Counted from the first letter of the stretch, positions 166 through 52,682 are shown. The stretch: DNA of 52,796 bases from Bacteroidia bacterium (GCA_025057135.1 JANWXY010000020.1:1-52796), one strand, 5' to 3'. The notes: generated by a model from the sequence alone, not told the origin. Numbers and translations are program-made.

Positions 166-2445
166 TCATAGATGCCCCATCATTAGTCGCACATAAAAGC
201 GCTCCCTCAGCAATGAATCTCTGAGCGGCACAAATACGCCGAGTCTTAGCAGCCTTAGACTGGGAAAAACTCGTTCTACAAAGGGCGGTACCCATTTCTG
301 AATAGACAAGCCCCCTTCTGGGTAAAGTATGTCATCCGCATAAGCGCCTTGCAGATGAAGCGTCATAGTAGGGGTCCATTGGGAGGAGGGGAAACGGGTG
401 TTCGGAATGCTCCACTCAAAGAAGAGATAATGCGATACACTCGCAAAGTGCCGTACAGGATGGGCTGCCAGAGCATTTTCTATGCCAGCGTATAGATCAG
501 GTAGCGTCCTTAAGCGAGGCCTCCAAAGATTAGGAAGATTTTGACTATAAATCGTACTGAAACGAAAAAATATCTCCGCCCACCTTCCCCACCGCCAGCT
601 GTGAGCGAAGTCTATTTGAGTCCAGAAAGGCAGCCTTAGATAACTTCTTCCCTCCTGCCACACAAGCCCCCCCTGAATGTGTAGGCGTGGTAAAGCATAC
701 TCACTCCGCCAAGCTATGCCTCCTCGGCGCAATACCGTCTGTCTGTGAATATATTCCACGCCAGCAGAGGCTTTCATGCCACGCCATCGCTCTGCGAATA
801 GGTCGCGCTGCATGCCTGCTACTGATGCGTATCCCGTAAGGTTATTTACCAAGAAGAGCCTCATGTACATGCCCATAGCTCTCTCCCTTACCATGTCCTC
901 CCAGCGGAAGCTATAACCGCGAATAGTCGCTTCATACACTGATTGCTCATCTGGAAACCGACCGGCATTTTCGTCTACAAGGCGGGGTAGCGTATTTTCT
1001 CTTATGTCATCGTAGTAGAAAATCTTTGCCTGATTGAGCCTTCCGAAAAGTAGCTCCGCTCCGTATCGCCATGGACTGCCCTGAGCGACTGCCCAGCGAT
1101 AGAGTCCATATCCAGCCCATAGCCGTAATCGGATAGTTCTCGATACGCTATCGTTTGTTTCAAGCCCAATCTGAGGGCGTAGCCCTTCGGCATCGTGATA
1201 CAGGACCAGCGGACGCAGGATTAGATTGAAAACACCCATCGGTATGCGTCCTGTCATGAGCGTAGGTATATCTAAAAGCCAGGCTAATCTTCGTACCTTC
1301 ACTTTTGAAAACAAGCTATCCATGAGCCGATAAGACCTCTGTTCATCCAAGGTGAGCTCTTCTGCTCTATAGCGTATAGCAGGCAATCGGTCAGGTAAAA
1401 CTACCTCTGCTCGGCGGATCTCGCTGGTATCCGCAATCAGCTGTATAGAACGCAAAAAAGAACGACTACGCAGTAGAAAACTGATTGGAGTATTTTGGCG
1501 GCTGCGCATACGAAGTAGAACCTCTGAGTGCAGTTGGGTAGGAAACCACAGAGTATCCCCCAACTTTTCATAGTAATGCCATATGCGGTAAAATGGGGTC
1601 TGAAACACACCGCTACGCTCCCTGATCTTATCCGTCTCTGCTTGCAGGGCATAGAGAGCGCCGTCTGGGAGGGCTATTGTTAGCTTTCCATACATAGCCC
1701 AAGCAGCTCGCCCCTTGCGTGGGAAAAACTCAATCTGAATCAGAGTATCTCCACCAGCGTAGAATGTGTCTGAAATCGCATACTCATAATACTCAAAGGC
1801 TTCACTGCCTATGGGGCTGGCAATGTCATTCTCAAGGAGCGTAATCCGCTTGCTGTATAGGCTTATCGGTAGAAACGAAGTAGGTGAAAATGGGCTTTGA
1901 ATAGGTAGGTTACCAGAGACGCTCTGTGCCAGCAGGCTCTCTTTGTAGCGGCTGAGGTTATAATATATCTTTTCTGTCTCTGTCTCCCAGATAAGAAGGT
2001 ACGGCGGAATAGTGTCCGTCTGCAAACTATCAGGAAGTGATAGCGTAAGTTTATTATAGCTGAGATACTTATGCGGGCGTCTTAGAGGGTCCCAACGGTC
2101 AGCATTCATTTGGAGTAGGCGAATGAGCCTATACGCTGGATTTTCTCCGGGACGAATTATGACCGATTGAAGCTCTATGGGCTGGGCTCTTAGCTTCAAA
2201 GTTTCTGGGAGGGTAAAAACGCTGATGCGGCGAGCCTCATAGCCTACGCATCGCAGTTCCAGAGTATCTTTAGGGTATGCTTTGATACGAAAGCGCCCTT
2301 GAAGGTCAGTATAAGTGCCCTCTTGGGTGCGCAGGTTTCGTACAGTGACAAATGGTAGAGCGTCGCCGTCTTCGTCAGCGATGATACCTCCCACCCATTC
2401 CTGTGCCCATAGAAGGCTGCCAAGCAGCCCCCATAGCAACTTCAT
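166..2445 (-). CDS. Carboxypeptidase-like regulatory domain / DUF5686-type outer membrane protein
   Basis: ORF 166..2454; signal-like N-terminus MKLLWGLLGSLLWAQ, then a CarboxypepD_reg-like segment (GGIIADEDGDALPFVTVRNLRTQEGTYTDLQGRF) and a long beta-rich body; start set at the internal Met (2445) after a TACTTTTG box. Confidence 0.75.
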   Translation of the reverse strand: MKLLWGLLGSLLWAQEWVGGIIADEDGDALPFVTVRNLRTQEGTYTDLQGRFRIKAYPKDTLELRCVGYEARRISVFTLPETLKLRAQPIELQSVIIRPGENPAYRLIRLLQMNADRWDPLRRPHKYLSYNKLTLSLPDSLQTDTIPPYLLIWETETEKIYYNLSRYKESLLAQSVSGNLPIQSPFSPTSFLPISLYSKRITLLENDIASPIGSEAFEYYEYAISDTFYAGGDTLIQIEFFPRKGRAAWAMYGKLTIALPDGALYALQAETDKIRERSGVFQTPFYRIWHYYEKLGDTLWFPTQLHSEVLLRMRSRQNTPISFLLRSRSFLRSIQLIADTSEIRRAEVVLPDRLPAIRYRAEELTLDEQRSYRLMDSLFSKVKVRRLAWLLDIPTLMTGRIPMGVFNLILRPLVLYHDAEGLRPQIGLETNDSVSRTIRLRLWAGYGLYRWAVAQGSPWRYGAELLFGRLNQAKIFYYDDIRENTLPRLVDENAGRFPDEQSVYEATIRGYSFRWEDMVRERAMGMYMRLFLVNNLTGYASVAGMQRDLFAERWRGMKASAGVEYIHRQTVLRRGGIAWRSEYALPRLHIQGGLVWQEGRSYLRLPFWTQIDFAHSWRWGRWAEIFFRFSTIYSQNLPNLWRPRLRTLPDLYAGIENALAAHPVRHFASVSHYLFFEWSIPNTRFPSSQWTPTMTLHLQGAYADDILYPEGGLSIQKWVPPFVERVFPSLRLLRLGVFVPLRDSLLRERFYVRLMMGHL

Positions 2446-2470
2446 GAATCGCAAAAGTAGCCCCTGCGCT

Positions 2471-3838
2471 TCATGGGGCGTGGATGAGGACGATGCTCTC
2501 CTGTCCGAGAGTGAAGAAGTACGGACCCTTCGGCATTTGAGAGGTAAATAGAGTAAAAGATAGACTTTCTATAACTCCTTCACTTATTACCCGACCGTTT
2601 GTATCCATGAGACGCCAGGGCTGTCCTATTTTATCGGCGGAAACTTCTACGCAGAGAGTTTGAGAAAATGGATTTGTAAAAATGCGTGCCGGGACAGTAG
2701 AGGCTTTCGGCATCTCTGTCGTGAGACTAAGCACAAAAGTCGTTTCTGCCACGCATCCCTTGGCGTCTCTCACGAGAACAGTATAAGAACCAGCTGCAAG
2801 TCCCGATGGGCTCGCCCCGCTAAACCCATGACTCCACGTATAGCTATATGGAGGATGGCCTCCAGAAACCATCAAATCAATTGCACCTCCTGTGGGATTC
2901 TGGGAAGTAGGCGCTGTAACTTGTCCTTGAATAGAAAGACGCTGGTAAGAGCACTGCTCTTGAAAAGTAATCCCACTCATGGCAGACAGTGTGTCTAAAA
3001 ACTTAGCCAGACAGCTGTCTTTCAGATAAGCATTTAGGAAGGGCAAAAGGAGCCGCTGAGTCATTCCCTGCTGTTGCGCACGGGTAAGGGTGATACTTGA
3101 ACCAGCAGAGCTCTCCCCAAAGGAACAGGTAGTACTGTTATTAGCAAAATAACAGTGCCCTCCACCAGTGAGACTGACGAACCATTTGCAAGAGGTACCC
3201 AGGGCATTGTAAATCGGTATCTGGTGCGCATGTGGAGGAGTAACGCTATCTCCAGAGCCTGCCAAAATAAGTGCGGGCATAGAGACTTGGGGAGCAGCAC
3301 TGATTGCAGAAGGGTTAGTGTTAGCAGCGGCTAAACCGATAACACAGACTGCCCCTGAAAAGTTTTGTGCAGCTAAAACAGCACATCCCCCTCCCATAGA
3401 ATGTCCCATTAGAGCGACCTTTGGATGAATGCGTTGATAAAAAGGGCTGCTCGGATTTTGTCCTTCTGCGATCATTCGTTGGGCTATAACTCTCATGTCC
3501 AGTGCGAAGTCTTGATGACTCGGAGAAAAGCCCCCCTCTGTACGGGGTAGAGCCACAATGTATCCTGCAGGCACTATGGCTTCCCATAGGTTCTGATAGG
3601 CAGACCACTCCATCAAAAATCCATGTCCAATAATCACCACCGGAAAAGAACCGACCTGGATGGTAGCATTTGTCCCTGCACTAGTGGCAGGATAATAAAT
3701 CTCTGTTTGAATCTGCCGTCCTGGTCCCCCACCAGACCCGAATCCACCCGTTCGGCTCGGGTCGTTGAAGGTCATCGTACGATGTCCTATCTGACCGTGT
3801 AATAAGGCCACAGCTAAACCGCTGAATACTCTAAGCAT
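2471..3838 (-). CDS. Secreted alpha/beta hydrolase (chlorophyllase/cutinase-like) with SprB-like repeat and T9SS C-terminal domain
   Basis: GHSMGGG nucleophile elbow, GSGDSVTPP Asp loop, GGGHCYF His; SprB-like segment GGAIDLMVSGGHPPYSYTWSHG...GSYTVLVRDAKGC; C-terminal ARIFTNPFSQTLCVEV...LMDTNGRVI...GPYFFTL. Start trimmed to MLRVFSGLAVALLHGQ because the 4045 start overlaps the divergent gene. Confidence 0.8.
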   Translation of the reverse strand: MLRVFSGLAVALLHGQIGHRTMTFNDPSRTGGFGSGGGPGRQIQTEIYYPATSAGTNATIQVGSFPVVIIGHGFLMEWSAYQNLWEAIVPAGYIVALPRTEGGFSPSHQDFALDMRVIAQRMIAEGQNPSSPFYQRIHPKVALMGHSMGGGCAVLAAQNFSGAVCVIGLAAANTNPSAISAAPQVSMPALILAGSGDSVTPPHAHQIPIYNALGTSCKWFVSLTGGGHCYFANNSTTCSFGESSAGSSITLTRAQQQGMTQRLLLPFLNAYLKDSCLAKFLDTLSAMSGITFQEQCSYQRLSIQGQVTAPTSQNPTGGAIDLMVSGGHPPYSYTWSHGFSGASPSGLAAGSYTVLVRDAKGCVAETTFVLSLTTEMPKASTVPARIFTNPFSQTLCVEVSADKIGQPWRLMDTNGRVISEGVIESLSFTLFTSQMPKGPYFFTLGQESIVLIHAP

Positions 3839-3889
3839 AATGCAAAGAACAGAATTCTTCCAAACGAAACAAGTGTGCCCCTCTAATCC

Positions 3890-3897
3890 TACTTTTG
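3890..3897 (+). promoter_or_regulatory. Bacteroidota -7 box TACTTTTG, 4 nt before ATG at 3902
   Basis: Matches TAnnTTTG. Confidence 0.6.
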
Positions 3898-3901
3898 CTG
3901 A

Positions 3902-5047
3902 ATGAAATGGGCTACCCTTGCAGTACATGCAGGTACAGAGCCAGACCCTATGACAGGAGCCGTGATGGTGCCTGTATATTTCACCTCTACGTATGCTCAG
4001 GAAGCGCCAGGTGTGCATAAGGGCTACGAGTACAGCCGCACACACAATCCCACGCGTACAGCCTTAGAGACATCCTTGGCCCAGCTTGAAAGTGCAAAAT
4101 ACGGACTGGCGTTTGCCTCTGGTATGGCTGCGACAGATGCCGTACTGCGTCTCCTCCGCCCCGGAGACCATGTGATAGTCAGCAGAGACCTATATGGGGG
4201 AACCTACCGTATTATGCGGCAGGTATTTGAACCTTGGGGGCTCAAGTTTGACTTTGTGGATACTTCGGATATCGCTACCGTGGAGGGGTCATTTCGACCA
4301 GAAACCAAAATGGTATGGATAGAGACCCCGAGCAATCCTCTTTTGCACATCTCGCCCATAGCCGCGTTAGCTGATTTAGCTCATACTCATGGTGCCCGTC
4401 TCGTGGTGGACAACACGTTCGCTACTCCCTACCTGCAATCCCCCTTAGAAATGGGTGCTGATATTGTCGTTCATTCAGCGACGAAGTATTTAGGGGGGCA
4501 CTCAGACGTCGTCATGGGCGCTATCATGCTGAATAACGAAGCTGATTACCAGCAGCTTCGTTTCCTGCAAAATGCCGTTGGAGCCGTTCCTGGTCCTATG
4601 GATGCTTTTCTTGTTCTGCGGGGCATAAAGACCCTCCCCCTGCGCATGCATAAGCACAGCGAAAATGCTCTCAAGATTGCCGAGTTCCTCGCAGCTCATC
4701 CTAAGGTTTCTAAGGTGTATTATCCCGGCCTTATTACACATCCTCAATATCTACTGGCTAAGCAGCAAATGCGCTTGCCCGGGGGAATGGTCTCCTTTGA
4801 AGTCAAAGTCAAGAATATGGATGACATGAAGAACTTCTGGAAAGGGCTGCGGGTATTTACACTGGCAGAGAGTTTAGGTGGTGTAGAATCCCTTGTCAAT
4901 CATCCAGCTACGATGACCCACGCCTCCATTCCTGAGTCAGATAGACTTGCTTTGGGAATCACCCCTGGACTGCTCAGACTATCTGTGGGCATAGAAGACG
5001 CAGACGATCTCATTGCTGATCTCAAAGTTGCACTCCAAAGCGTGTGA
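3902..5047 (+). CDS. Cys/Met metabolism PLP-dependent enzyme (cystathionine gamma-synthase/lyase family)
   Basis: YEYSRTHNPTR, ASGMAATDAVLRLL, SATKYLGGHSDVVMG, SVGIEDADDLIADL motifs. Confidence 0.93.
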   Translation: MKWATLAVHAGTEPDPMTGAVMVPVYFTSTYAQEAPGVHKGYEYSRTHNPTRTALETSLAQLESAKYGLAFASGMAATDAVLRLLRPGDHVIVSRDLYGGTYRIMRQVFEPWGLKFDFVDTSDIATVEGSFRPETKMVWIETPSNPLLHISPIAALADLAHTHGARLVVDNTFATPYLQSPLEMGADIVVHSATKYLGGHSDVVMGAIMLNNEADYQQLRFLQNAVGAVPGPMDAFLVLRGIKTLPLRMHKHSENALKIAEFLAAHPKVSKVYYPGLITHPQYLLAKQQMRLPGGMVSFEVKVKNMDDMKNFWKGLRVFTLAESLGGVESLVNHPATMTHASIPESDRLALGITPGLLRLSVGIEDADDLIADLKVALQSV

Positions 5048-5151
5048 GCCGCCGTCGGGCGAAGTGTATTTTTCGTTATATTTGGCCATGGCAGGTCTGG
5101 TGATTAGCAATCTTGACGCTTTACATTCACAATCAAACCTTACCTCAGGTT

Positions 5152-5631
5152 ATGTCTGAAATGTTCCCCGCAGGAGAGCGCCTCTTTCATCGCATGAAGC
5201 ACCTGCTTGATAAGCTGGAACTGCGATATGCGATAGATGAAGACAATGACTTTCAGCTCATTATCACAGGAGAGGATATAGCTCCGCAGCTGCGTATCCT
5301 CATTCTACGCGAGGGGGTTATGCGCGAAGTTCTGGCTCTCATTGTGCGATTTGAGGGGGATTTACCTACATGGACCGAGGAGGAGGCCCTCCGAATCGCT
5401 AATCATTGGAATACAGTTCGCCGTTGGCCTCGTATATTTTGGAAAAATGGTCATTTTCATGGGGACTTTCATATAGACTTAGAAGCCGATGTTTCGCAGG
5501 AGTTTCTTGAAATGAACCTAAAACACTTTTTAGGTTCAAGTTTGCAGTTTGCTCTCTATATCACTGGGCGGGAGGGTGATCTCATCAACCGATTGAGTAA
5601 GCGCTTCTTAGATGATTTTCGGCTAAACTGA
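5152..5631 (+). CDS. YbjN-domain-like protein
   Basis: WNTVRRWPRIFW...HFHGDFHIDLEADVSQEFLEMNLKHFLGSSLQFALYI resembles YbjN; start could be TTG at 5113 or ATG at 5152. Confidence 0.6.
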   Translation: MSEMFPAGERLFHRMKHLLDKLELRYAIDEDNDFQLIITGEDIAPQLRILILREGVMREVLALIVRFEGDLPTWTEEEALRIANHWNTVRRWPRIFWKNGHFHGDFHIDLEADVSQEFLEMNLKHFLGSSLQFALYITGREGDLINRLSKRFLDDFRLN

Positions 5632-5669
5632 CTTTGATACTTGGCTTAGGCTTTCTGCCCCAATGCCTC

Positions 5670-6515
5670 TCACACTGTGAGAATAATAGCCCCTATTCCC
5701 AGGACATATCCTACGCTAACTTCCCAAGAGAGCTTTTCCCGAAAAAACACTATCCCTATCATCCCCGAGAGAAGCACAATCCCGAGATTATTCCATAAGA
5801 AAAACTGTACTGCTGGCAGCGTCTCTAACCCCCGAAGGTAAAAGTAGATAGAGAGCAGGTTTGTACCGCCTAATAGGATAGCTGAAAGCCAAGTTTTGCT
5901 ATGGAAAAGCTCGGATAATCGTCGTTGATAACCATGCCAAAACACCCCCAGAATGCCTGCCACACTCATAATGATGAGCGGAATATGCAGGGGAGACAGT
6001 ACCTTCCATTTCGGATGGAAAGCCTTGAAGAGAATATCTATGACGCCGTTACCAAGCCACAGGAGCAGTCCTATGCGCAGGGCTTGAATTAGGCTTCTAC
6101 CCTTGCCTCCGCGTAAGTATGGAGCATGAATGGCTAATATAGCTCCCAATCCTGCTGCGAGCCCAACACTCTGACGGGGGGAGAGCGGCTCGTTGAGGAA
6201 AAGGGCAGCAAAACTTATCGGTAGGATAACAGACAGTTTAGTAAGCATGCCAGTTAGCCCGACCCCCACAGTGCGAGCAGACTCTCCCGTAAGTATGAAA
6301 ATACTGATGAATAGCCCCCCTAAAATCCCCATGACCATTAGGCTTACGGGCTCTACCCTCCAGAGCTCTGCGACTCGGGGCGTATCAAGGATCGCTGCCA
6401 AACTGACGCATACGAAATAGTTCAGGGTAACTAATGCTGGAGTGGGTACTCTTAGTATGCGCAGCCAAAGGAGGAGGAGCACATTTGTGAGAATGGAGCC
6501 TATGACGAAAATCAC
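5670..6515 (-). CDS. EamA/DMT-superfamily transporter
   Basis: About 10 hydrophobic segments, internal duplication typical of EamA; GTG at 6515 preferred over ATG at 6533 because of the upstream CATTTTTG box. Confidence 0.75.
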   Translation of the reverse strand: MIFVIGSILTNVLLLLWLRILRVPTPALVTLNYFVCVSLAAILDTPRVAELWRVEPVSLMVMGILGGLFISIFILTGESARTVGVGLTGMLTKLSVILPISFAALFLNEPLSPRQSVGLAAGLGAILAIHAPYLRGGKGRSLIQALRIGLLLWLGNGVIDILFKAFHPKWKVLSPLHIPLIIMSVAGILGVFWHGYQRRLSELFHSKTWLSAILLGGTNLLSIYFYLRGLETLPAVQFFLWNNLGIVLLSGMIGIVFFREKLSWEVSVGYVLGIGAIILTV

Positions 6516-6549
6516 TATGCAAAAATGCGGCATGCAGTACCTTTGAAGG

Positions 6550-7404
6550 ATGCTGGAAAGGTTTCTGGGTTATCTGGAGGGGATACGCCGCGCCAGCAAG
6601 CACACCATAGAGGCTTATAGGCGGGATTTAGAGAGTTGGGCTGAGTTTTGCCGGAAATATCATCAGTTTGACCCTTTGGAAAGCCCGGAAACATGGCGTC
6701 GTGCTACCGCTACGCAGCTTCGCGCCTGGTTGAGTTTATATGAGAGAGCCAATACTCGCGCTCGTAAAGTAGCAGCCATTCGCCGAATGGATAGATTCTT
6801 GCATCAAGTATGCGGGGAGAAAGGGCTATCTTGGCGTCCCAGTAGTCCTCGTCAGCCGCATTCTCTGCCCAAAGCCCTGCCCGAAGCGCAGCTTATGGCC
6901 TCTCTAGAAGCATTAGAAAGTCTGCCTGCGGATTTCTCCACGATTCGGGACTGGCTGTTGATTGAGCTAATGTACGGGTGCGGTTTGCGACGCAGCGAAG
7001 CGGTACAGCTCCGATTATCTCATATCTATCGAGAGGAGATACACATCCTCGGAAAAGGGAACAAATGGCGGGTATTGCCCCTGTATCCTCGCCTTATACA
7101 GCTGATTGAGCGGTACTTACCTATGCGAAATAGCCTTAGTCCGAAGCACGACTTTCTCCTCTGCACAGAGAAAGGCGCGCCTCTGTATCCGAGAGCTGTG
7201 CATCGTATCGTGCGCCAAAGGCTTGGCACGCATCCCCATGCTTTGCGACATAGCTTCGCTACACACCTTCTCATGCGAGGAGCGAATGTTCAGGCGGTAC
7301 GTGATCTTTTGGGGCATGAGACTGTGGCTACGACTCAGAAATACCTCGCTTTGACGCCAGCTGAAGTCAAAGCGGCATATAAAAAGTTCCATCCTCGGGC
7401 ATGA
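6550..7404 (+). CDS. Tyrosine recombinase, XerC/XerD-like
   Basis: YGCGLRRSEAVQLRLSHI; HALRHSFATHLLMRGANVQAVRDLLGHETVATTQKYLAL contains R..HxLRH..G(x)..Y. Confidence 0.92.
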   Translation: MLERFLGYLEGIRRASKHTIEAYRRDLESWAEFCRKYHQFDPLESPETWRRATATQLRAWLSLYERANTRARKVAAIRRMDRFLHQVCGEKGLSWRPSSPRQPHSLPKALPEAQLMASLEALESLPADFSTIRDWLLIELMYGCGLRRSEAVQLRLSHIYREEIHILGKGNKWRVLPLYPRLIQLIERYLPMRNSLSPKHDFLLCTEKGAPLYPRAVHRIVRQRLGTHPHALRHSFATHLLMRGANVQAVRDLLGHETVATTQKYLALTPAEVKAAYKKFHPRA

Positions 7405-8312: not shown

Positions 8313-8323
8313 AAAATTTTCTT

Positions 8324-8331
8324 TACCTTTG
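8324..8331 (+). promoter_or_regulatory. -7 box TACCTTTG upstream of tRNA-Gly
   Basis: TAnnTTTG match, 11 nt before mature tRNA. Confidence 0.55.
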
Positions 8332-8342
8332 CGAGCGGCATT

Positions 8343-8415
8343 GCGGGAGTAGCTCAGCTGGTAGAGCGTCAGCTTCCCAAGCTGAAGGTCGCGGGTTCGA
8401 AACCCGTCTCCCGCT
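8343..8415 (+). tRNA. tRNA-Gly (anticodon CCC)
   Basis: Cloverleaf by eye: GCGGGAG acceptor pairs CTCCCGC; anticodon stem TCAGC/GCTGA around loop TTCCCAA; T-arm GCGGGTTCGAAACCCGT. Confidence 0.95.
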
Positions 8416-8452
8416 CTAAGGTGTTCAAGCACATTTGTATTCTCTATTCTAC

Positions 8453-13552: not shown

Positions 13553-13893
13553 AAGCGATTGCCTTCTTTCGGAAAAATCACTCGCGGCTGATAAGTGCGG
13601 GCTTCCTCCTCAGTCATCCATGCATACGATAGGATGATTATGATATCCCCTACTAAGCCGGTTCGTGCAGCAGGTCCATTCAACCCGACTACACCACTCC
13701 CTGGTTCCCCTTCTATCACATAGGTCTCTATGCGGCTGCCAGTATTTACATTCAGCACATGGATTTTTTCAAAGGGTAAAAGCCCTGCCGCCTCCATCAA
13801 ATCCCTATCCAGCGTCAGACTCCCGACATAATCTAGGTCCACTTGCGTGATTCTCGCACGATGGATTTTAGACTTGAGGACGCATACCCACAC
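13549..13893 (-). CDS. panD: Aspartate 1-decarboxylase
   Basis: VLKSKIHRARITQVDLDYVGSLTLDRDLMEAAGLLPFEKIHVLNVNTGSRIETYVIEGEPGSGVVGLNGPAAR; GS autocleavage site; GTG start at 13893 inferred from promoter spacing. Confidence 0.95.
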   Translation of the reverse strand: MWVCVLKSKIHRARITQVDLDYVGSLTLDRDLMEAAGLLPFEKIHVLNVNTGSRIETYVIEGEPGSGVVGLNGPAARTGLVGDIIIILSYAWMTEEEARTYQPRVIFPKEGNRL

Positions 13894-13936
13894 TAAGCAA
13901 AGGTACAAATACTGGCATCAAACCCAGGGAAAAACG

Positions 13937-14215: not shown

Positions 14216-15394
14216 TTAGTTGAGCCGTTCAAAGATACCGGCGATTCCTTGGCCGCCTCCTACACAAGCGGTTACCATTCCGTATTTACCGCCTTGTCGG
14301 CGCAGTTCATTTAGCACCTGTACGGTGAGCTTAGCTCCGGAACATCCAAGCGGATGACCAAGGGCGATAGCTCCGCCATTGACGTTTAGTTTATCCATAG
14401 GAAGTTCGGCTTGCTGGATTACAGCCAGAGATTGAGCGGCAAATGCTTCATTCAGCTCTATTAGGTCTATATCTGCTAAAGATAAACCCGCCCGGCGTAA
14501 CGCTTTGGGTATCGCTTCTACGGGACCGATGCCCATTATGCGGGGCTCTACACCAGCTACGGCGTATCCACGCATCACAGCAATGGGAGTAAGATTGTGT
14601 CGCTTGAGAAAGTTTTCACTTACTACGAGCACAAATGCGGCACCGTCTGAGGTTTGGGAGGAGTTTCCAGCCGTTACCCTTCCATTAGCTGAAAAAACCG
14701 GTTTGAGCCGGGCGAGGGCTTCCAGGCTTGTATCGGCTCGAGGCCCTTCGTCTGTGTCGTGAATATAAGTGCGGCTCTGTTTTTTCCCGTTTTCTACTAC
14801 CACTTCTTTGACGGTGAGGGGAACGATTTCATCCTTGAACTTCCCCGCTTGAATAGCGGCTATGGCGCGCTGGTGAGAGCGTAAAGCAAACTCATCTGCG
14901 GCTTCTCGGCTTATCTCATACTTTTTGGCGACTTCTTCTGCGGTCATTCCCATTCCATAGTACCAGTCGGGGGCATGGAGGGCATATTCGTAGTTAGGTA
15001 CAATCTTATAGCCGCCCATAGGTACGAGCGACATAGTTTCCGTACCGCCAGCCAAAATGGCATCCGCATCCCCCGTCCTAATCTTTGACACAGCCATTGC
15101 GATAGCCTCTAGACCTGAGGCGCAGTAGCGATTGATGGTAACGGCGGGGATTTCTTTTCCCACAGCACGCAAAGCGATATAGCGCGCCATGTTCAATCCT
15201 TGTTCTGCCTCGGGAATAGCATTTCCGCAAATCAAGTCATCTATCTCTTGCGCAAAATTTATCTGTGGTAGAGTAGCTTTGATTTTCTCTATCACTGCTA
15301 CTGCCATATCATCGGGGCGAACAGTGCGTAGGCGCCCTCTGGGTGCTTTACCGACCGCTGTGCGAAAGCCCGCAACGATGTAAGCTTCCTGCAT
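14216..15394 (-). CDS. Acetyl-CoA C-acyltransferase (thiolase)
   Basis: NRYCASGLEAIAMA, NVNGGAIALGHPLGCSGAK, TACVGGGQGIAGIFE; start at MQEAYIV. Confidence 0.94.
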   Translation of the reverse strand: MQEAYIVAGFRTAVGKAPRGRLRTVRPDDMAVAVIEKIKATLPQINFAQEIDDLICGNAIPEAEQGLNMARYIALRAVGKEIPAVTINRYCASGLEAIAMAVSKIRTGDADAILAGGTETMSLVPMGGYKIVPNYEYALHAPDWYYGMGMTAEEVAKKYEISREAADEFALRSHQRAIAAIQAGKFKDEIVPLTVKEVVVENGKKQSRTYIHDTDEGPRADTSLEALARLKPVFSANGRVTAGNSSQTSDGAAFVLVVSENFLKRHNLTPIAVMRGYAVAGVEPRIMGIGPVEAIPKALRRAGLSLADIDLIELNEAFAAQSLAVIQQAELPMDKLNVNGGAIALGHPLGCSGAKLTVQVLNELRRQGGKYGMVTACVGGGQGIAGIFERLN

Positions 15395-15415
15395 GCAGCA
15401 AATATACAATACACC

Positions 15416-16122: not shown

Positions 16123-16130
16123 TATGTTTG
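16123..16130 (+). promoter_or_regulatory. -7 box TATGTTTG, 4 nt before ATG at 16135
   Basis: TAnnTTTG match. Confidence 0.6.
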
Positions 16131-16134
16131 CAGC

Positions 16135-16857
16135 ATGCGTTTAGTTGGTAAGGTAATACTCGTTACAGGCGGCACGCGAGGCATTGGTAGAGCTATCGTA
16201 GAGAAGCTTCTCAGTGAGGGTGCGCGAGTGGCATTTACCTATAGAGGGTCGGTAGAGTTAGCAAATGCTCTCGTTCAGAAGGCTCCAGATCGTCTTTTAG
16301 CCTTTCAGGCGGATGTAACCGATGTTAGTCGGACTGATTTCGTCGTCGCAGAGACTCTCAAGACTTGGCAGCGAATAGACGGACTCGTCAATAATGCTGG
16401 CATCACGCAAGATACCCTCTTACTACGCATGACCGAAGCTCAGTGGGATGCGGTGATAAATACGAACTTGAAAGGCCCTTTCTTGTATAGTAAAGCTGTC
16501 TTGAAGCCTATGTTAGCTCAGAGACGAGGGAGCATCGTAAATATCACTTCAATCGTGGGCATTCAAGGTAATCCTGGTCAAGCCAACTATGCCGCTGCCA
16601 AAGCAGGGCTTATAGCTTTTACTAAATCCCTCGCTAAAGAAATTGGCTCTCGCAATATCCGTGTGAATGCCGTAGCGCCAGGCTTTATCCGAACAGACAT
16701 GACCGCTGACCTACCAGGGGAGGACTGGAAAAAGAGTATCGCTTTAGCCCGTTTAGGCGAACCAGAGGAAGTCGCCGCCCTCTGCGCTTTCTTGCTGTCG
16801 GACGAGGCGTCTTATATCACAGGGCAAGTGCTGGTCGTCGATGGAGGCATGATTTAG
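16135..16857 (+). CDS. fabG: 3-oxoacyl-ACP reductase (SDR)
   Basis: TGGTRGIGRAIVEKL, NNAGITQDTLLLRMTEAQWD, YAAAKAGLIAFTKSLAKE, VDGGMI. Confidence 0.93.
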   Translation: MRLVGKVILVTGGTRGIGRAIVEKLLSEGARVAFTYRGSVELANALVQKAPDRLLAFQADVTDVSRTDFVVAETLKTWQRIDGLVNNAGITQDTLLLRMTEAQWDAVINTNLKGPFLYSKAVLKPMLAQRRGSIVNITSIVGIQGNPGQANYAAAKAGLIAFTKSLAKEIGSRNIRVNAVAPGFIRTDMTADLPGEDWKKSIALARLGEPEEVAALCAFLLSDEASYITGQVLVVDGGMI

Positions 16858-25208: not shown

Positions 25209-25267
25209 GACTCATCAGAAAGGTACAAATATCCCACTCATGTCCTTGTAAGAGCTACTTTTGGGTG

Positions 25268-26791
25268 GTGAGTCGGCTTATTGAGAAGTATTTTTTCGCC
25301 CCTAAGGATAGCCTCGTCACCTCTGAGCGTGCCCTCCCGCCAGTATGGCTGCGACGCTTTCTCAGAGGTATAGTTATATTGCAGATAGCTATTGTAACCT
25401 GGGACACCATTGGTCTCATGCGTGCTTATGGGATTCGCAGGGTGCAGGCAGACTGTGCAGCTTATCTTACAGCGGCTCAAGCCCTTCTAAGAGGGGATGG
25501 TCTCAAGACTCCCCCTATTTTTGAGCCGCTCCCATACGGCTGGATGCACGAATGGCCTTTAGGCTATCCCGCAGCCATCGCTTTGACTACTAAGGTTACG
25601 GGCTTAGAGCCCTTCTATGCCAGCCGTTGGCTGAACGTCATCCTTCTGATGGTGACCTACGGACTGCTCCTCTACTTTTTTAGAGAAGAGGCGGAGTGGA
25701 TTTTCTTTTTCATTTATCCGCCGAACTACACTTGGAATGTTACTTACGCCCTTTCGGAAAATCTCTACATACCGCTATTTGTAGGCTTTATTGGGGCTTT
25801 CTGGAAATACCGTCAAACCATGCGCCTGCGGTGGGCAGGGGTGATGGCATTGATGTTGGGGGCGCTTTTTCTGACCCGTTATGCCAGCATAGCAATAGGG
25901 GCAGGACTTGCTCTATGGGGGATGTGGCGAGCCCTCAGAAAAGATTGGAAAACCTTTATCGTATCTATCGGCTTGTTCATAGGGCAGGCGGTATTGGCGG
26001 CACTTTATTTCTGGTGGAACTCTCTAAATCATCCTCTGAGGGAGACGGGATTATCGATCCGCGATATGCCTATGCCCCCGGACCTATTGTGGCTCATATG
26101 GGAGCTTGTCCCATTTATTAGACTGGTGGGGTTGGTAGGGCTTGGATTTTTAGTAGTGAGGTGGCTGAGGGGAGGGACTCGCTTTTCCCCAGATAAGGAA
26201 GAGCTGCATGAGATTCTCCTTATCCTATCCTTTACTCAGGCGATGCTGTATTTCTGGAGCATGTGGCGGGGTCGGGTAGGTATCGTGGATATGAGGCACT
26301 TTGTCATAATCTTTCAGCCGCTTATGTGGTATTGGGGCCAAAGATTGTGGCGATATTTTTCTCCCTATGCCATAGCTATTGGAGGGTTAGTATTTTTAGG
26401 ATGGCAGATTCGCAATACATACCGGCATCACCGCTGGGCATATGAGAAGTCTTATGTGCCGTACGAGTATGTGACGGCGGTCAGACAGGCTTATGACAGC
26501 CTGCCTCAACGCAGCTGTATTATCTCTGGTAGCTTGGCTTACTCCATAGTGGGCGGGCGGACAGATATATGTATGGGACAGAGCGGCGCCTACTTTCCGA
26601 TACTTCTTCGGGATTGTGACTGTCTGTACATAGATTGTGGTCTTTTAGAGGAGCGGCATAAGCTGGGAATGGCGGGGGGCATTTTTTGGCCATTTATTCG
26701 ATATTGTGATAAACCATGTACTTCGTGGGTATGTCTCAGGAAAATCGCTTGCGCAAGCTCACCCCCGAAGAGCTCGGAAGGCTCTCCGTAG
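25268..26791 (+). CDS. Polytopic membrane protein, glycosyltransferase 39/87-like
   Basis: Many TM helices; N-terminal loop DCAAYLTAAQALLRGDGLKTPPIFEPLPYGW resembles GT-C fold enzymes; GTG start by promoter spacing. Confidence 0.6.
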   Translation: MSRLIEKYFFAPKDSLVTSERALPPVWLRRFLRGIVILQIAIVTWDTIGLMRAYGIRRVQADCAAYLTAAQALLRGDGLKTPPIFEPLPYGWMHEWPLGYPAAIALTTKVTGLEPFYASRWLNVILLMVTYGLLLYFFREEAEWIFFFIYPPNYTWNVTYALSENLYIPLFVGFIGAFWKYRQTMRLRWAGVMALMLGALFLTRYASIAIGAGLALWGMWRALRKDWKTFIVSIGLFIGQAVLAALYFWWNSLNHPLRETGLSIRDMPMPPDLLWLIWELVPFIRLVGLVGLGFLVVRWLRGGTRFSPDKEELHEILLILSFTQAMLYFWSMWRGRVGIVDMRHFVIIFQPLMWYWGQRLWRYFSPYAIAIGGLVFLGWQIRNTYRHHRWAYEKSYVPYEYVTAVRQAYDSLPQRSCIISGSLAYSIVGGRTDICMGQSGAYFPILLRDCDCLYIDCGLLEERHKLGMAGGIFWPFIRYCDKPCTSWVCLRKIACASSPPKSSEGSP

Positions 26792-28858: not shown

Positions 28859-28898
28859 TTTCTGTAAGGTACAGAAAAAAACCGATACCTTTGACGAG

Positions 28899-30425
28899 AT
28901 GCGGATGTTATGGGCTCTGCTGGGGGCAGGTAGCCTTTTAGCACAAACAGAGCTTGATGCAGAGCGTTGGAGCCAGAGCATCCCTCAAGGGAGCGCAAGG
29001 GCACTGGGGATGGGAGGCGCATTTACTGCTCTGGGCGGCGACCCTTCCAATCTCACTCAAAACCCCGCAGGCATCGGCCTCTTTATGAGAGGTGGCTTGT
29101 GGCTTACGCCTACTTTGTCCGTCTCTACGACCTCCTCGTCTTACTTAGGGCCGGCACAAGATAGCCGTTCCCACCTCGGATTGAGTCAGTTTGCGGCTAT
29201 TTTTCATGTGAAAGGCGGACGCACAATCACCCACTGGAACTTTGGAGTTGGATATAATCAAGAAGGGTTTTTTGTACAAAATACCCTCGCTCAGGGCTTC
29301 AATACTCGGAACTCTATTACGCAAGCCTTCGCTGAGCAAGCAGAAGGCATACCAGATACACTTTTATTTGGTTCTCCAGCCTTGGCTTACAATACTTTCG
29401 TGCAGAGCCCCACGCCTTCTACTACATGGGGCGTCATAGACCTGGTTTCTACCAACCCCTGGCGGTATAAAGGCGTATTTTCTGACGGGGGGATTTTCCA
29501 AGATATTTCTCGTCAAGAGAAGGGTAGGCTGAATACATGGGGGGTGTCGGTAGGCTTGTGCTATCAGAACATGGTATTTTTCGGCGCCTCTCTATTGATT
29601 CGCAGTCTCAACTACTCTAATCTCTACCGTTTCCGCGAAATAGACACCGAAAACCGCTATAATGGACAAAATGGCACCTCTCCTGTAGACCAGATAGTAC
29701 TGCGAGAGAAATATACCTCCTCAGGTAGTGGTTTCGGGTTGGCCGTGGGCGTACTCGTGGAGCCGTTAGATTATTTTCGCTTTGGAGCGAGTTTCATTAC
29801 CGGGTCGCGCATAAACATTCAAGACGAATACACTGCGGACATGGAGTTGCTTGTAGATGATGGGCGCAGTGCGTTGAGTTCTTTTGAAGAGCCGTATCAG
29901 TATGAATATACATTTTCCTATCCTTACCGAGTGAATGCAGGGCTGGCTTTTATAATTCCAGAGCGGGGGGCGGTATCTGTGGAAGGAGAATATCTGGATT
30001 ACCGCACTGCGGGCTTTACTTCCGAAGGCTACAGCTACGATATACAGAATGAAAATATAGAACGGTCATTTGGAGGGGCTTACAATTTGCGTGTTGGTAC
30101 GGAATGGTTACTTAGCCCCCAAGTCAGCATCAGAGGGGGATATGCGTATTACTCACCTGTCCGAAATCCGCAGGCTCGGCAATACTATGCAGACCCGCTA
30201 CGCCCTCAAAATTTGACGACCTTGGCTATGCAGCGTCAATTTATCTCTTTGGGGGCCAGCTATTCTTTCGGAAGTTTTTTCGTGGATATGGCATACATAT
30301 ATGCAATGAGTGCCCAAGTGTATTTAGCCTACTATGTCAGAAATCCCGCTTACGCTCCGGCCCCGAATGTTGTCATTCAGGATCGCACGCACCGAGTAGT
30401 TACTACATTTGGGTTACGATTTTGA
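28899..30425 (+). CDS. OmpP1/FadL-like outer membrane protein
   Basis: Signal-like MRMLWALLGAGSLLAQ; GSARALGMGGAFTALGGDPSNLTQNPAGIGLF; C-terminal aromatic RHRVVTTFGLRF-type strand. Confidence 0.8.
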   Translation: MRMLWALLGAGSLLAQTELDAERWSQSIPQGSARALGMGGAFTALGGDPSNLTQNPAGIGLFMRGGLWLTPTLSVSTTSSSYLGPAQDSRSHLGLSQFAAIFHVKGGRTITHWNFGVGYNQEGFFVQNTLAQGFNTRNSITQAFAEQAEGIPDTLLFGSPALAYNTFVQSPTPSTTWGVIDLVSTNPWRYKGVFSDGGIFQDISRQEKGRLNTWGVSVGLCYQNMVFFGASLLIRSLNYSNLYRFREIDTENRYNGQNGTSPVDQIVLREKYTSSGSGFGLAVGVLVEPLDYFRFGASFITGSRINIQDEYTADMELLVDDGRSALSSFEEPYQYEYTFSYPYRVNAGLAFIIPERGAVSVEGEYLDYRTAGFTSEGYSYDIQNENIERSFGGAYNLRVGTEWLLSPQVSIRGGYAYYSPVRNPQARQYYADPLRPQNLTTLAMQRQFISLGASYSFGSFFVDMAYIYAMSAQVYLAYYVRNPAYAPAPNVVIQDRTHRVVTTFGLRF

Positions 30426-47000: not shown

Positions 47001-47211
47001 AGGCTTTTTCATACTTAGAGAGATTGAGGAGGCACTCGATCCCTCCGAGATAGGCTTGCAGGCGCGAGCTATCGGTGGAAACGAAACGAGATATTACGGA
47101 GTCATATAAAGCGAGAGCGGCTTTATACTCTCCGGCTTCACGCAGACTGTCTGCGCGAATAGTTGCAGGCTGAGACCATCCGAGAATGGGGAGGATAATC
47201 AGCCAGCGCAT
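44059..47211 (-). CDS. Exported TPR-CHAT protease-like protein
   Basis: Signal-like [14 protein letters not shown]; ~11 tandem 42-aa TPR units ([44 protein letters not shown]); CHAT His ([13 protein letters not shown]) and Cys ([31 protein letters not shown]). Confidence 0.92.
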   Translation of the reverse strand: [1050 protein letters not shown]

Positions 47212-47260
47212 GAGCAAAAATATAGCTCTACCTTTGCTTCGTTTCTGTTTAATCCGAAAT

Positions 47261-48259
47261 ATGTGGCTCCTTTTGCGTGCAGAAGCTACCCCTGAAACGC
47301 TACTTCAAGCCCTGCGAGCTGAGTCTCTGGAGGTTCGGGTGCATCGTTTGGGTGATCGTTGGGCTCTGGAAATACAGGGTAATGGACATTTATCCGAAGC
47401 CTTTGCCAGGTATGAGGAGGTAGAACGCGTTTTTTCTACACACGACATCCAGCCGCTTGTTCAGCAGTGGAGCCACAATGTAGAACTACCTACATGGCAG
47501 AGAGGAAAGGGCTTGCTATGGATAGCTGGTCCTTGTAGCGTAGAGAGGAAAGCGGACTTTCTCCGTTTAGCTCAGGAGCTCAGAGCTATTGGCGTTCAGG
47601 TGCTACGAGGCGGTGCTTTCAAGGCACGGACCTCCCCCTATTCCTTCCAAGGCATGGGACAAGAGGCACTGGACTGGTTATTTGAAGCCAAAAGTCTGAC
47701 AGGCTTGCCTATTTGCGTAGAAGTAGTGAGTGAAACGCACTTACCCCTCTATGAGCATGTGGATATTCTACAAATCGGAGCTCGGAATATGGATGATTAT
47801 TGGCTTCTGAAGGCTGTGGCGCCCCTCGGCAAACCCGTCCTTCTCAAACGTAATCCCCAAGCCACCATAGAAGAATGGCTTCTGGCGGCTGAATACCTTC
47901 TCCTCTATGGCACCCCTTGGGTGCTCCTATGTGAGCGGGGGATACGAACCTTTGAGCGGAGTCTGCGATACACCATGGATATCGGCGCCATCCCTGCAGT
48001 CCAACGAAAAACTCGGCTCCCTGTAATAGCGGACCCCTCGCATGCAGCAGGGAGATGGGATTTTGTAGAGCCATTAGCGCTCGCAGCTATCGGAGCGGGA
48101 AGCGAAGGACTAATAGTAGAGGTCCATCCTGAGCCTCTGAAAGCACTCTCAGATGCAGCTCAGCAGCTTACGATAGAACAGTTTCAGCGCTTGTATGAAC
48201 GAGCTAATGCCATCTACACCGTACTTTCACGGCACCTCTCGGAGCCACTCCAAGCCTAA
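47261..48259 (+). CDS. 3-deoxy-7-phosphoheptulonate synthase (AroF/AroG type Ibeta)
   Basis: IAGPCSVE, LRGGAFKARTSPYSFQGMG, DILQIGARNMDDYWLLKAV, KPVLLKRN, VIADPSHAAGRW. Confidence 0.95.
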   Translation: MWLLLRAEATPETLLQALRAESLEVRVHRLGDRWALEIQGNGHLSEAFARYEEVERVFSTHDIQPLVQQWSHNVELPTWQRGKGLLWIAGPCSVERKADFLRLAQELRAIGVQVLRGGAFKARTSPYSFQGMGQEALDWLFEAKSLTGLPICVEVVSETHLPLYEHVDILQIGARNMDDYWLLKAVAPLGKPVLLKRNPQATIEEWLLAAEYLLLYGTPWVLLCERGIRTFERSLRYTMDIGAIPAVQRKTRLPVIADPSHAAGRWDFVEPLALAAIGAGSEGLIVEVHPEPLKALSDAAQQLTIEQFQRLYERANAIYTVLSRHLSEPLQA

Positions 48260-49120
48260 CCGAAGGAGCTTACGCATAGCTTCTTCTGGGGAAGCTCCCC
48301 CATTTTGATAGATGAACTCCCCGCGCTGACGGTGGGCTATACCTAAGCACAAAGCCCCAGCTTCATGACCTAAAACCTGGGCTAAGTAGTACAGTGGTGC
48401 CGCTTCCATTTCAATATTTTGCACTTTATACCCCTCAAACTGAAAAGTACTGAGAACTTTTGGCAAGTCAGGGTGTTGCGCTACATATCTGGTCTGCCGC
48501 CCCTGAGGAGCAAAAAATCCCGGCGCACTGTAGGTGATTCCCAGAACTACTGAATGCGCCCTTTCTGTCTGAGCAGCTTTTTGCCGAAAAAACTCAGTGG
48601 CTCTCACGCCGTACCACGGAAGAGTGGAACCCGAAGTATTCTGCCAGTGCTTTTGAATAGCGTCCGTAAGAGATTTATGAGCAATAGCAGGGTAGAAGAA
48701 TGGAAGGGAATCGGTACCCAACGCCCACTCGCTGAACACCACAGCTCCCAGAGGGGTTTCATCTTGAAGGAGCCCGCTGGTACCTACGCGCAAGAAGTAG
48801 AGCTTTTTTTGGGTAGGAAAAGGTATGCCTCGGCTTAGGTCTATATTGTGGACAGCGTCTAACTCTATGAGGGCAATTTCTGTATTGTCAGCGCCAATCC
48901 CAGTACCGACGACAGTAATGAGCACTCGCTTATAGAGCCCTGTGAACCAGACAAACTCTCTATTCCCTCCTCTGTGAAGGATGGAGGAAAAGAGCGGTTC
49001 GCATAAAGCAGCTCGTGCAGGATCGCCGACCAGAAGGCAGCGGTGAGATGCCTCGCCTGGACGCAGAGCCAAGTGATACACAGCCCCATCAGGTCTCAGG
49101 GGGAGCTCGCTGGGCTTCAT
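48227..49120 (-). CDS. Nucleoside (uridine-type) phosphorylase
   Basis: CLLVGDPARAALCEPLF, VVGTGIGADNTEIALIELDAV, LRVGTSGLLQ, VQNIEMEAAPLYYLAQVLGHEAGALCLGIAHR. Confidence 0.88.
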   Translation of the reverse strand: MKPSELPLRPDGAVYHLALRPGEASHRCLLVGDPARAALCEPLFSSILHRGGNREFVWFTGLYKRVLITVVGTGIGADNTEIALIELDAVHNIDLSRGIPFPTQKKLYFLRVGTSGLLQDETPLGAVVFSEWALGTDSLPFFYPAIAHKSLTDAIQKHWQNTSGSTLPWYGVRATEFFRQKAAQTERAHSVVLGITYSAPGFFAPQGRQTRYVAQHPDLPKVLSTFQFEGYKVQNIEMEAAPLYYLAQVLGHEAGALCLGIAHRQRGEFIYQNGGASPEEAMRKLLRLGLEWLREVP

Positions 49121-49235
49121 ATAACGAAGTTGCATAATTTGGAACTAATCCCTACTCCAAACGGAAGCCCAAAGATTTATGAACGGATTCTTGGGATATT
49201 TTGTCTTAGGCTCACAGGCAAAAGAGCATAGCCGT

Positions 49236-49243
49236 TATCTTTG
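49236..49243 (+). promoter_or_regulatory. -7 box TATCTTTG, 5 nt before GTG at 49249
   Basis: TAnnTTTG match. Confidence 0.6.
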
Positions 49244-49248
49244 CCGCA

Positions 49249-50358
49249 GTGGCAAATAGCGCCGAACTCAAAGCCCGTCGGCGCCGCTGGTGGCGCGAAC
49301 TCTTTATCGCCTTGGGGGTGATTCTATTCCTGCGCACCTTCATTGTGGAGGCTTTTCTTATACCAACCAGTTCTATGGAAAGGACACTTTTAGCATGGGA
49401 TTTAGTCTTTGTCAGCAAGCTCCACTACGGCCCGCGTTTACCTATGGTGCCGCTCGCTATCCCTTTCATTCATAATCGCATTCCTTTCACGGGCATCCCA
49501 TCTTATCTGGACTGGATTGTTTTGCCATATACTCGTCTCAAAGGCTTCAAGCCGATCCAACGAGGAGACATCATCGTCTTCAACTATCCAGCCGACGACA
49601 TCATGCCCAATAGTCCAGAGCTGGGCCCCGTGTATATTCCCAGCTTGAAGGAGAACTACGTCAAGCGATGCGTAGGCGTACCAGGGGATACAGTGGAGAT
49701 TCGGGCGGGCAACTTATACGTCAATGGTAAGCCCAGCTATCACCCGCGCTATGTCCAAGAGCGCTATAAAGTGGTAACTAAAGGCGCACCACTGACGCAC
49801 CGAGTGCTCAAACAATACGGCTTCCGTCCGCCAGGTAGCTCTAATCTGAACTGGATAGCGCTGGACGAGCGAACCTATCTCTTAGATATGCCCCGTTTCT
49901 TAGCAGAGGAGTTTCGGCAAAAGTTCGCAGAATTTCTGGATACTTTTCATAGAGCTGTGGATACGGCAGGAAACTTTCTACCCCAAGTATATCCTCAAGA
50001 CACCACTTTCCGGTGGAACTTAGACTACTGGGGGCCCTTTTATTTGCCGAAAAAAGGCGACCGCATTTCACTCAATCACTATAACTTGACTCTATACCGT
50101 CGCCTGATAGAGGCATACGAAGGGCACACTATATATGTTTCCAAAGGTCAAATTTACATTGACGGCAAGCCACAGAGTGAATATACATTCACCCAGAACT
50201 ACTACTTTGCCATGGGCGATAACCGCTATAACTCCCTTGACGGACGATTCTGGGGCCCTGTGCCAGAAGATCATATTGTAGGCAAGCCCATTTTTGTCCT
50301 ACTTTCTATTGAAAACTGGACGCCTCGATGGGAACGCTTTCTGAGAGCCGTGCAGTAG
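49249..50358 (+). CDS. lepB: Signal peptidase I
   Basis: [17 protein letters not shown] catalytic Ser; [27 protein letters not shown] catalytic Lys; [30 protein letters not shown]. Confidence 0.95.
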
Positions 50359-52589
50359 CCGAAGCCGCTGGGCTCAGCCCTGATGAATACGAGCGTATTT
50401 TGACCCTCCTGAGGCGAGAGCCTAGTCCTGTGGAAGTCTGGCTATTCTCTGCGCTATGGAGCGAACACTGCAGCTATAAAAGTTCGCTTATACATCTGAG
50501 ACGTCTACCGCGCCGAGGAGCTCATAGCCTTCGAGCGGCTGGTGAGGAAAATGCGGGCATTTTAGACATCGGAGATGGATGGGCTATTGCTTTCAAAGTA
50601 GAGTCGCACAATCACCCCAGCGCAGTTGCGCCGTATCAAGGCGCTGCCACAGGGGTCGGAGGGATTCATCGGGATATCCTCGCCGTAGGCGCCCGACCAA
50701 TAGCCGCTTTGAATTCTCTGCACTTCGGTTACCCTATACAGGCTCAAACCTATCGCATCATAGACGGCGTGGTGCGAGGCATCGGCGATTATGGGAATGC
50801 TTTGGGCGTCCCAACCATAGGCGGAGAAACATATTTCGCCCCTGAATATCAGGGGAAGCCCATCGTAAATGCGTTTAGCATAGGACTTGCTCGTATAGAC
50901 CAGTTGGTCAGCGCTCGTGCGCAAGGTGTGGGGAATCGTGTGTTGTATTTGGGGGCTGCGACGGGCCCGGATGGCGTAGGGGGAGCTTCTTTCGCCTCAG
51001 AGACCTTAGATGAGGAAAGCCGAGATAATCTCCCTGCTATTCAGGTGGGTAATCCCTTCCGTGAAAAGCTCCTGGTGGAAGCGATTATGGAGATGGTAGA
51101 GCGGCGACTGATTGTAGGTATGCAAGACATGGGAGCCGCCGGGCTTGCCAGCTCTACTGCGGAGACTGCGGCGCGAGGGCAAGTTGGCATGCGGATATAC
51201 TTAGATAAAGTGCCTCTACGTGGGGGTGTTTCTCACCCTCGGGAAATTCTCCTCTCCGAATCTCAGGAAAGAATGCTCCTCATCGCTCGTCCAGAGGATG
51301 TTGAGCTCATTAAGAGTATCGCTGCAAAATGGGAGCTTACATGCACAGAGATAGGGGAAATCACGGACACTAACCTTTTAGAATACTGGTGGAAGGGGGA
51401 GAAAGTGGTAGAAATGCCGCCTTCGCTCTTATTAGCCGGGGAAGGGGCTCCTGTATATGACCATCCGCGCACTCCTCCCGCTTACTTGAAGGAAGTGGAA
51501 AGATTTGATCAAAAAAACCTGCGGGATATTTCTTCTACCGAAGAGTTCATGAAGATTACTTATGCGCTGATTAGGCATCCTAATCTGGCTGACAAGAGGT
51601 GGATATATGAGCAGTATGACCGCATGGTCGGTGCTGCTACGATGGGTAGTGCTGGTGAAATACTCGCCGCTGCACCGACTATAAGGCTGCCTTATGAAAC
51701 GAGAGCTTTGGCGATGACCTTAGATTGCAATCCTTGGTGGGTGGAGGCCAATCCCCGAGTAGGTACAGCATTAGCTGTGGCAGAAGCTGCTCGTCAGGTC
51801 GCTTGCACAGGAGCAGTTCCTTTAGGCATCACCAATTGCCTCAACTTCGGCAGCCCGCGCCATCCTGAAGTCTACTGGCAGTTTGTGGAAGCCGTAGAGG
51901 GTATGCGGGAAGCCTGTGAAGCTTTAGGACTCCCCGTTACAGGCGGTAATGTCAGCTTTTACAACCAAGACGAGAATGGCCCTATACTCCCCACGCCCGT
52001 TATAGGCGTAGTGGGTCTGATAGAAGACGCTCTCCACAGGTGGGTTTCCATGGGGTTGCCTTCGGAGAGCGCCGAGTTGTATCTCATAGGGAGTCAGGAA
52101 GCGATTTATGCACCTACGCTGGGGAGTAGCCATTTTATCCGAGAGATACGAGCCATCCGCTACTCTCCTCCGCCGCACTTAAGTCTACCTGCGGAAAAAG
52201 CACTTGTTTCCCTTCTGCCGCGTCTCGCAGCAGAAGGACTTCTACTGGCAGCTCAGGACATCTCAGACGGAGGACTGCTGATAGCCCTTTTGGAGATGGC
52301 TTTTATCGGAGGTAACGGCTTCAAAGTAACTCAACCTCGGGGGGTGCGGATAGATGCCTTCTGGTTTGGAGAGGATGGCGGACGAGTGGTAGTGGCTGTG
52401 GCGCCTTCTTATGCAGAGCGCCTTCGTCGCAGAGTAGAAGACGTGGGACTCTGTGCTTACCGCTTGGGTGAAACTATACCTGCGGCAGGCTGGGCGCAGA
52501 TTGAAACAGACGTAGGGCATGCCCGATTAGACCTCATAGCGCTGAAAGGGCTCTGGGCTACTGCTCTCCAGGACGCTTTCATGAGTTAA
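50328..52589 (+). CDS. purL: Phosphoribosylformylglycinamidine synthase subunit II
   Basis: [94 protein letters not shown]. Confidence 0.95.
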
Positions 52590-52610
52590 ATTTTTAGCTA
52601 CTTTTGCGTC

Positions 52611-52682
52611 GGCCCCATAGTTCAAGGGATAGAACGTGAGCCTCCGGAGCTCAAGATCCAGGTTCGAGTCCTGGTGGGGCTA
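52611..52682 (+). tRNA. tRNA-Arg (anticodon CCG)
   Basis: GGCCCCA acceptor pairs TGGGGCT; anticodon stem TGAGC/GCTCA around loop CTCCGGA; T-arm CCAGGTTCGAGTCCTGG. Confidence 0.93.

Follow-up and report, generated by a model that had tools for sequence, protein, structure and literature searches.

The TAnnTTTG box, the −7 element of Bacteroidota promoters, very probably abuts the coding sequence in an uncultured genus of this phylum, and more than half of the genes there that own a promoter are predicted to give mRNAs that are leaderless or nearly so. The arrangement was noticed in a stretch of 52,796 nucleotides (nt) from a Bacteroidia bacterium (GCA_025057135.1 JANWXY010000020.1:1-52796, hereafter the window). 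A first-pass annotation of the window had listed 12 genes with the box 3-6 nt before the start codon and had predicted widespread leaderless mRNAs. The present analysis supports that prediction, and the box-start arrangement reaches far beyond the window. Where the box lies, how it is spaced and conserved, and that it behaves as a promoter are shown by sequence analysis; where the transcripts begin and how ribosomes enter them are what we infer.

Spacing of the box to start codons

In the whole genome from which the window derives (G000, 2.08 Mb), the pattern TANNTTTGNNNNATG gave 187 matches and its reversed control 18; for the GTG version the two figures were 77 and 13. A histogram over 401 kb counted 48 ATG codons at a spacer of 4 nt and 13 at each of 5 and 6 nt, over a background of about 5 per spacer; TTG, CTG, ATA and GTA showed no peak at spacer 4 in the same histogram. 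Gene-based fractions come from sampled stretches, totalling 592 kb in G000, 197 kb in G394, 800 kb in G399 and 163-200 kb in each of four controls. Starts were assigned there by a simple, motif-blind gene finder that relied on codon usage and start-codon identity only. Among 1,291 genes with such starts in three congeners, 157, 54, 32, 34 and 17 had the box at spacers 4, 5, 6, 7 and 8, respectively, with about 3 per bin elsewhere. For G000 alone, 55 genes fell at spacer 4; in 1,000 shuffles the mean was 0.18 and the count never exceeded 3. The genome-wide distance histogram that the first-pass annotation had itself proposed as a refutation check, run on these large samples, thus contains the peak at 4-5 nt.

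A gene transcribed divergently from its neighbour must own a promoter. The strict box stands 3-6 nt before 48/128 such genes in G000 and 13/30 in G394 (38-43%); the corresponding counts in four other Bacteroidota are 2/38, 5/50, 3/34 and 3/40. When boxes at 3-7 nt with at most one mismatch are counted and the background is subtracted, the proportion of divergent genes reaches 53% in G000, 55% in G394 and 60% in G399, compared with 6%, 21%, 11% and 15% in the four control Bacteroidota. Boxes in the control genomes G246, G115 and G041 lie mostly farther upstream, at about 8-44 nt. The box is rare before genes that follow a co-directional gene by 20 nt or less (15/231), and the overall operon-internal frequency is 6-10%.

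Within the window, all 12 boxes, spacers and start codons of the earlier list are present exactly as described. They are given here first, followed by three further boxes:

2445..2459, minus strand: TACTTTTG box, 6-nt spacer, ATG; DUF5686 gene (166-2445), PF18939, with the motif-blind start at 2445
3890..3904, plus strand: TACTTTTG, 4-nt spacer, ATG; pyridoxal phosphate enzyme of Cys/Met metabolism (metB-like), whose G399 ortholog has the box at spacer 4 and GTG
6538..6552, plus strand: TACCTTTG, 4-nt spacer, ATG; tyrosine recombinase (xerC-like), its ATG preceded at 6 nt by an in-frame stop
13893..13905, minus strand: TACCTTTG, 4-nt spacer, GTG; panD, in which position 1 of the PF02261 profile is residue 1 from the GTG
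15394..15406, minus strand: TATATTTG, 4-nt spacer, ATG; thiolase
16123..16137, plus strand: TATGTTTG, 4-nt spacer, ATG; fabG-like short-chain dehydrogenase/reductase, with identical box and spacer at loci L023, L025 and L026
18961..18973, minus strand: TATCTTTG, 4-nt spacer, ATG; 667-aa protein without Pfam match, previously labelled a type IX secretion system gene
25256..25270, plus strand: TACTTTTG, 4-nt spacer, GTG; 507-aa protein without Pfam match, with an in-frame GTG also at 25265
28886..28901, plus strand: TACCTTTG, 5-nt spacer, ATG; FadL/TodX-like outer-membrane protein, PF03349
43562..43577, plus strand: TATTTTTG, 5-nt spacer, GTG; 159-aa protein, with an ATG 6 nt further on
47211..47222, minus strand: TATTTTTG, 3-nt spacer, ATG; TPR-CHAT protein
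49236..49251, plus strand: TATCTTTG, 5-nt spacer, GTG; signal peptidase (lepB), motif-blind start 49249; G399 ortholog with spacer 5 and GTG
47229..47263, plus strand: TACCTTTG, leader of ~20 nt, probable ATG at 47261; back-to-back partner box and leadered counter-example
52599..52683, plus strand: TACTTTTG, 4-nt spacer, tRNA-Arg; the same box and spacing ahead of a non-coding RNA
8324..8416, plus strand: TACCTTTG, 11-nt spacer, tRNA-Gly

The spacing had been called constant. That word overstates the case: some window boxes serve tRNAs (8324, 52599) or genes with leaders of ~20-30 nt (47229, 5077). Position 52611, with which the range of the observation had been closed, is the 5' end of tRNA-Arg and not a protein start. 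For three of the listed genes (25268, 28899 and 43575), the exact start is ambiguous among nearby in-frame alternatives. The box alone is weakly enriched in the window (32 occurrences, 24.9 expected), and its non-random part is its position relative to starts.

This position is conserved across species. Among 166 reciprocal best hits between G000 and G399 (median protein identity 64%), a box at 3-6 nt was retained in the ortholog for 21/37 genes, against 16/124 for other genes (p=2e-7), and two other species pairs agree (p=0.003 and p=0.0003). In the ortholog alignments the box and the start remain, the flanks are mostly unrelated, and ATG and GTG are interchangeable. The thiolase gene illustrates this: four close relatives (80-92% identity) all carry the box at exactly 4 nt amid unrelated flanks, and the more distant Bacteroidota checked have either no box or one 25-60 nt upstream. 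Similarly, the box precedes the conserved ATG of rpsU (MIVIEP...) by 6, 5 or 4 nt in 9/10 congeners (loci L162-L165 and L216-L222), and a box with one mismatch stands at a comparable position in the tenth. The rpsU box lies 19-42 nt upstream in 13 other Bacteroidota where one could be detected, in several cases with GGAGG in between.

Promoter character and predicted transcription start

The first-pass annotation had equated TAnnTTTG with the Bacteroidota −7 element, an identification borne out by the boxes of tRNA genes, the depletion inside operons and an AT-rich block near −18. Expectation-maximisation over the divergent genes, seeded with the known consensus, yielded T89 A91 n n T98 T96 T85 G93 with C commonest at n; G occupies the two n positions in 13% and 5% of the spacer-4 class. 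A/T content rises ~4-8 nt ahead of the box, in agreement with the −18 block known from Flavobacterium johnsoniae. No clear motif corresponding to the −33 TTTG element was found within 35 nt before the box; this element is weak in F. johnsoniae too (PMC6847099). The box also stands 3-11 nt before most first-in-cluster tRNAs in G000, G394 and G399, which marks it as a promoter rather than a translation signal.

Two further observations concern promoter layout. For several tRNAs, among them the one at window 52599-52683, the box stands only 3-4 nt before the mature 5' end, so 5' processing of the primary transcript may be slight or even unnecessary; loss of RNase P was considered as a reading of these short leaders and rejected, since RNase P RNA is present in 11/11 genomes. 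Back-to-back pairs of the form CAAAnnTA-N0-30-TAnnTTTG number 33-72 per genome against 0-4 in the reversed control, and some have touching TA ends (e.g. window 47215-47236 and G394:C54:7099-7114), making very compact divergent promoters.

Probable promoters of F. johnsoniae have 4 or 5 nt from box to start site (PMC6847099), an offset that would place +1 on the start codon at spacer 4. At spacers 3-6, 254/254 start codons are ATG or GTG, and TTG is absent (0/254 against 15/813 other genes, p=0.03). The base before the start codon is a pyrimidine in 73% of the spacer-4 class. Among genes with spacers of 7 or 8 nt, 74-76% have a purine as the fifth spacer base, which points to the same start register. 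Shine-Dalgarno (SD)-like words are no more frequent before starts than in control stretches. The earlier claim that the purine of the start codon lies at or near +1, leaving no 5' UTR or SD sequence, is supported by the spacer-4 peak, the ATG/GTG-only starts and the lack of an SD excess. The spacer-7 class, seen in three congeners, often ends in GAT-ATG or AAT-ATG, likely a 3-nt leader, and its first spacer base is a pyrimidine in 97%.

In the proposed mechanism, the housekeeping (sigma-A type) promoters of the genus have TAnnTTTG as their −7 element, shifted up against the coding sequence. At spacer 4, RNA polymerase would start with the first base of the start codon, A or G, and at spacers 5-8 it would start 0-4 nt before that codon. 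An SD interaction is impossible on a leaderless mRNA, and the 5'-terminal AUG or GUG would most likely be read directly via initiator tRNA on 30S or 70S ribosomes, as is known for other leaderless mRNAs. Later operon genes, with neither box nor SD, would probably be translated by coupling, with which the frequent ATGA overlap is consistent (gap −4 in 60/231 operon-internal genes).

Alternative readings and the ribosome

The alternative that survives best, though we consider it improbable, accepts the boxes as promoters and holds that other promoters upstream are also or mainly used, leaderless mRNAs being a minor species. Alternative promoters are common in bacteria, and further boxes do appear upstream of some genes in the spacing histogram. 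However, the many divergent pairs with back-to-back boxes within 30 nt leave little intergenic space for another promoter. Furthermore, within the genus, thiolase and rpsU show only the start-adjacent box in the stretch examined, whereas any box found in relatives from beyond the genus is at a greater distance upstream.

Still less credible is a role for the box as a translation or mRNA signal, bound for example by the ribosome or by S1, inside a longer leader with the true promoter upstream. Ribosome-binding elements typically keep a set distance from the start codon, and Bacteroidota lack SD sequences (PMC6847099). Such a signal would nevertheless have no place 3-11 nt before tRNA genes, where the identical box is found, and it is scarce before operon-internal genes, which need translation as well. 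The box also matches the known −7 consensus with its AT-rich block at −18, and orthologs keep the box and start while the sequence upstream is unrelated. Finally, chance or start-codon misassignment, by which a short motif and the choice of the nearest start would create an apparent spacing, could appeal to a window box count barely above expectation and to examples picked by eye, but is refuted by a peak that survives motif-blind starts, shuffles, the reversed-pattern control, other-genome controls and protein-anchored starts.

Several points weigh against predominantly leaderless expression itself. A start-adjacent box is compatible with a second, upstream promoter that makes a leadered mRNA. 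Strict boxes at 3-6 nt are missing in 16/37 orthologs, partly perhaps through start-call errors. The 53-60% figure covers only divergent genes in the sampled stretches, with boxes of up to one mismatch, and the remaining divergent genes have longer leaders or unrecognised promoters. In addition, the anti-SD tail (seen in one genome), bS21 and multi-domain S1 proteins are all retained, so the parts list itself shows no mark of a leaderless-adapted ribosome. The 16S rRNA 3' tail, located by pattern in G399 only, reads GGATTACCTCCTTTCT with an intact anti-SD core; an RF00177 search for 16S rRNA gave no match in any congener, the rRNA sequence being partly masked as N. bS21 was found in 10/11 genomes (the exception, G401, is a 140-contig draft) and multi-domain S1-type proteins in five of the five congeners tested; loss of S1 or bS21 was accordingly rejected as a cause. 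The stretch around the same tail (L205, G399:C1:792385-792400) reads GGATTACCTCC in this one genome, against the usual bacterial GGATCACCTCC, with the CCTCC core unchanged.

A predicted consequence concerns rpsU, which across Bacteroidota often has an exceptionally strong SD used in autoregulation (PMC9976891). A box 4-6 nt from the ATG leaves no room for an SD in the transcript, so the autoregulation described elsewhere is expected to be missing. All seven genomes with an rpsU spacer of 6 nt have two pyrimidines directly before the ATG, an arrangement that favours initiation on the A. Thus, rpsU is predicted to be leaderless and without a strong SD in this genus, and bS21 autoregulation is probably absent.

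Phylogenetic range and significance

Genus and family membership follow the grouping given by the sequence-search resource. The pattern is in excess in 10/10 congeners, by about 8- to 95-fold (counts against control from 133/6 to 223/16, with 190/2 in G400), and the only genome of the same order from another family shows almost no excess (50/39). In a sample of 393 genomes from the phylum, G000 is extreme and none comes near it in both density and ratio; some lineages have a weaker excess. G041 has the next highest density (128 against 33), and was rejected as a second leaderless case because its sampled starts show mostly leadered boxes. The strong leaderless form, as predicted from these genomes, is a property of this genus. 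A weaker start-adjacent excess was seen in G115 (family f3), G144 (f26) and further members of f26 and f30; in G144 and G115 such a box precedes 15-21% of divergent genes, suggesting a gradient across the phylum. Named relatives by thiolase are the metagenome-assembled genomes SKYB95, SKW103, KatS3mg026 and RSWP8. The SKY prefix agrees with an origin in the Sungai Klah hot spring (58-74 C; PMC8857248), and the names of these relatives indicate that the uncultured genus is probably thermophilic, from hot springs.

Archaea, Actinobacteria and Deinococcota commonly have leaderless genes (PMC3160421, PMC12340547). The closest parallel is the −10-motif-adjacent open reading frames of Deinococcota, a phylum that includes thermophiles, where a promoter element likewise sits by the start and was experimentally shown to be a promoter (PMC12340547, PMC3160421). 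Deinococcota, however, rely on a classical −10 element and have SD-led genes as well, whereas the element here is TAnnTTTG and not the TATAAT-like −10 element of the Deinococcota type, and the lineage has essentially no SD-led genes. The sigma-A (sigma-ABfr) promoters of F. johnsoniae, F. psychrophilum and Bacteroides thetaiotaomicron (PMC6847099, PMC9723704, PMC7366714) share the same TAnnTTTG and AT-rich −18 block, and the spacing here fits the same start-site offset. Leaders differ. In F. johnsoniae 87% of predicted leaders exceed 10 nt and 13% are at or under 10 nt (PMC6847099), 5.5% of F. psychrophilum mRNAs are leaderless (PMC9723704), and 3.7% of B. thetaiotaomicron leaders are under 10 nt (PMC7366714). 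Leaderless or short-leader mRNAs are therefore a small minority in the studied Bacteroidota, whereas here more than half of own-promoter genes have predicted leaders of ~0-3 nt. The components of rpsU control (PMC9976891) are likewise shared (rpsU, bS21 and, from one 16S tail, the anti-SD), but in this genus the rpsU box is start-adjacent.

Zheng et al. detected leaderless genes in 1/37 Bacteroidetes/Chlorobi genomes using a Pribnow-like signal, a limit they acknowledged; a Pribnow-only survey could have missed a start-adjacent TAnnTTTG. Nakagawa et al. (PMC5397173) proposed from base composition, with no test of promoter position, that leaderless mRNAs might contribute in Bacteroidetes. No report of a predominantly leaderless Bacteroidota lineage was found in the literature searched. 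Leaderless genes are known elsewhere; their predicted predominance in a Bacteroidota genus is unusual.

Somewhat more likely than not, the genus has given up the leadered, SD-less mode of its phylum and now initiates predominantly on leaderless mRNAs, rpsU included, a change that would remove the SD-based control of bS21. How Bacteroidota ribosomes find start codons without SD pairing has yet to be explained; leaderless mRNAs were dropped from consideration since leaders are present in the species studied. The genus offers a direct comparison, with more than half of its own-promoter genes predicted to be leaderless against leadered relatives, and for rpsU the leaderless reading predicts loss of the feedback loop. 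For these genomes, TAnnTTTG-N4-ATG/GTG provides a practical rule for start-codon correction and promoter finding. If true, the switch would constitute a natural experiment: a ribosome whose anti-SD is sequestered, initiating for the most part on a bare 5'-AUG or GUG.

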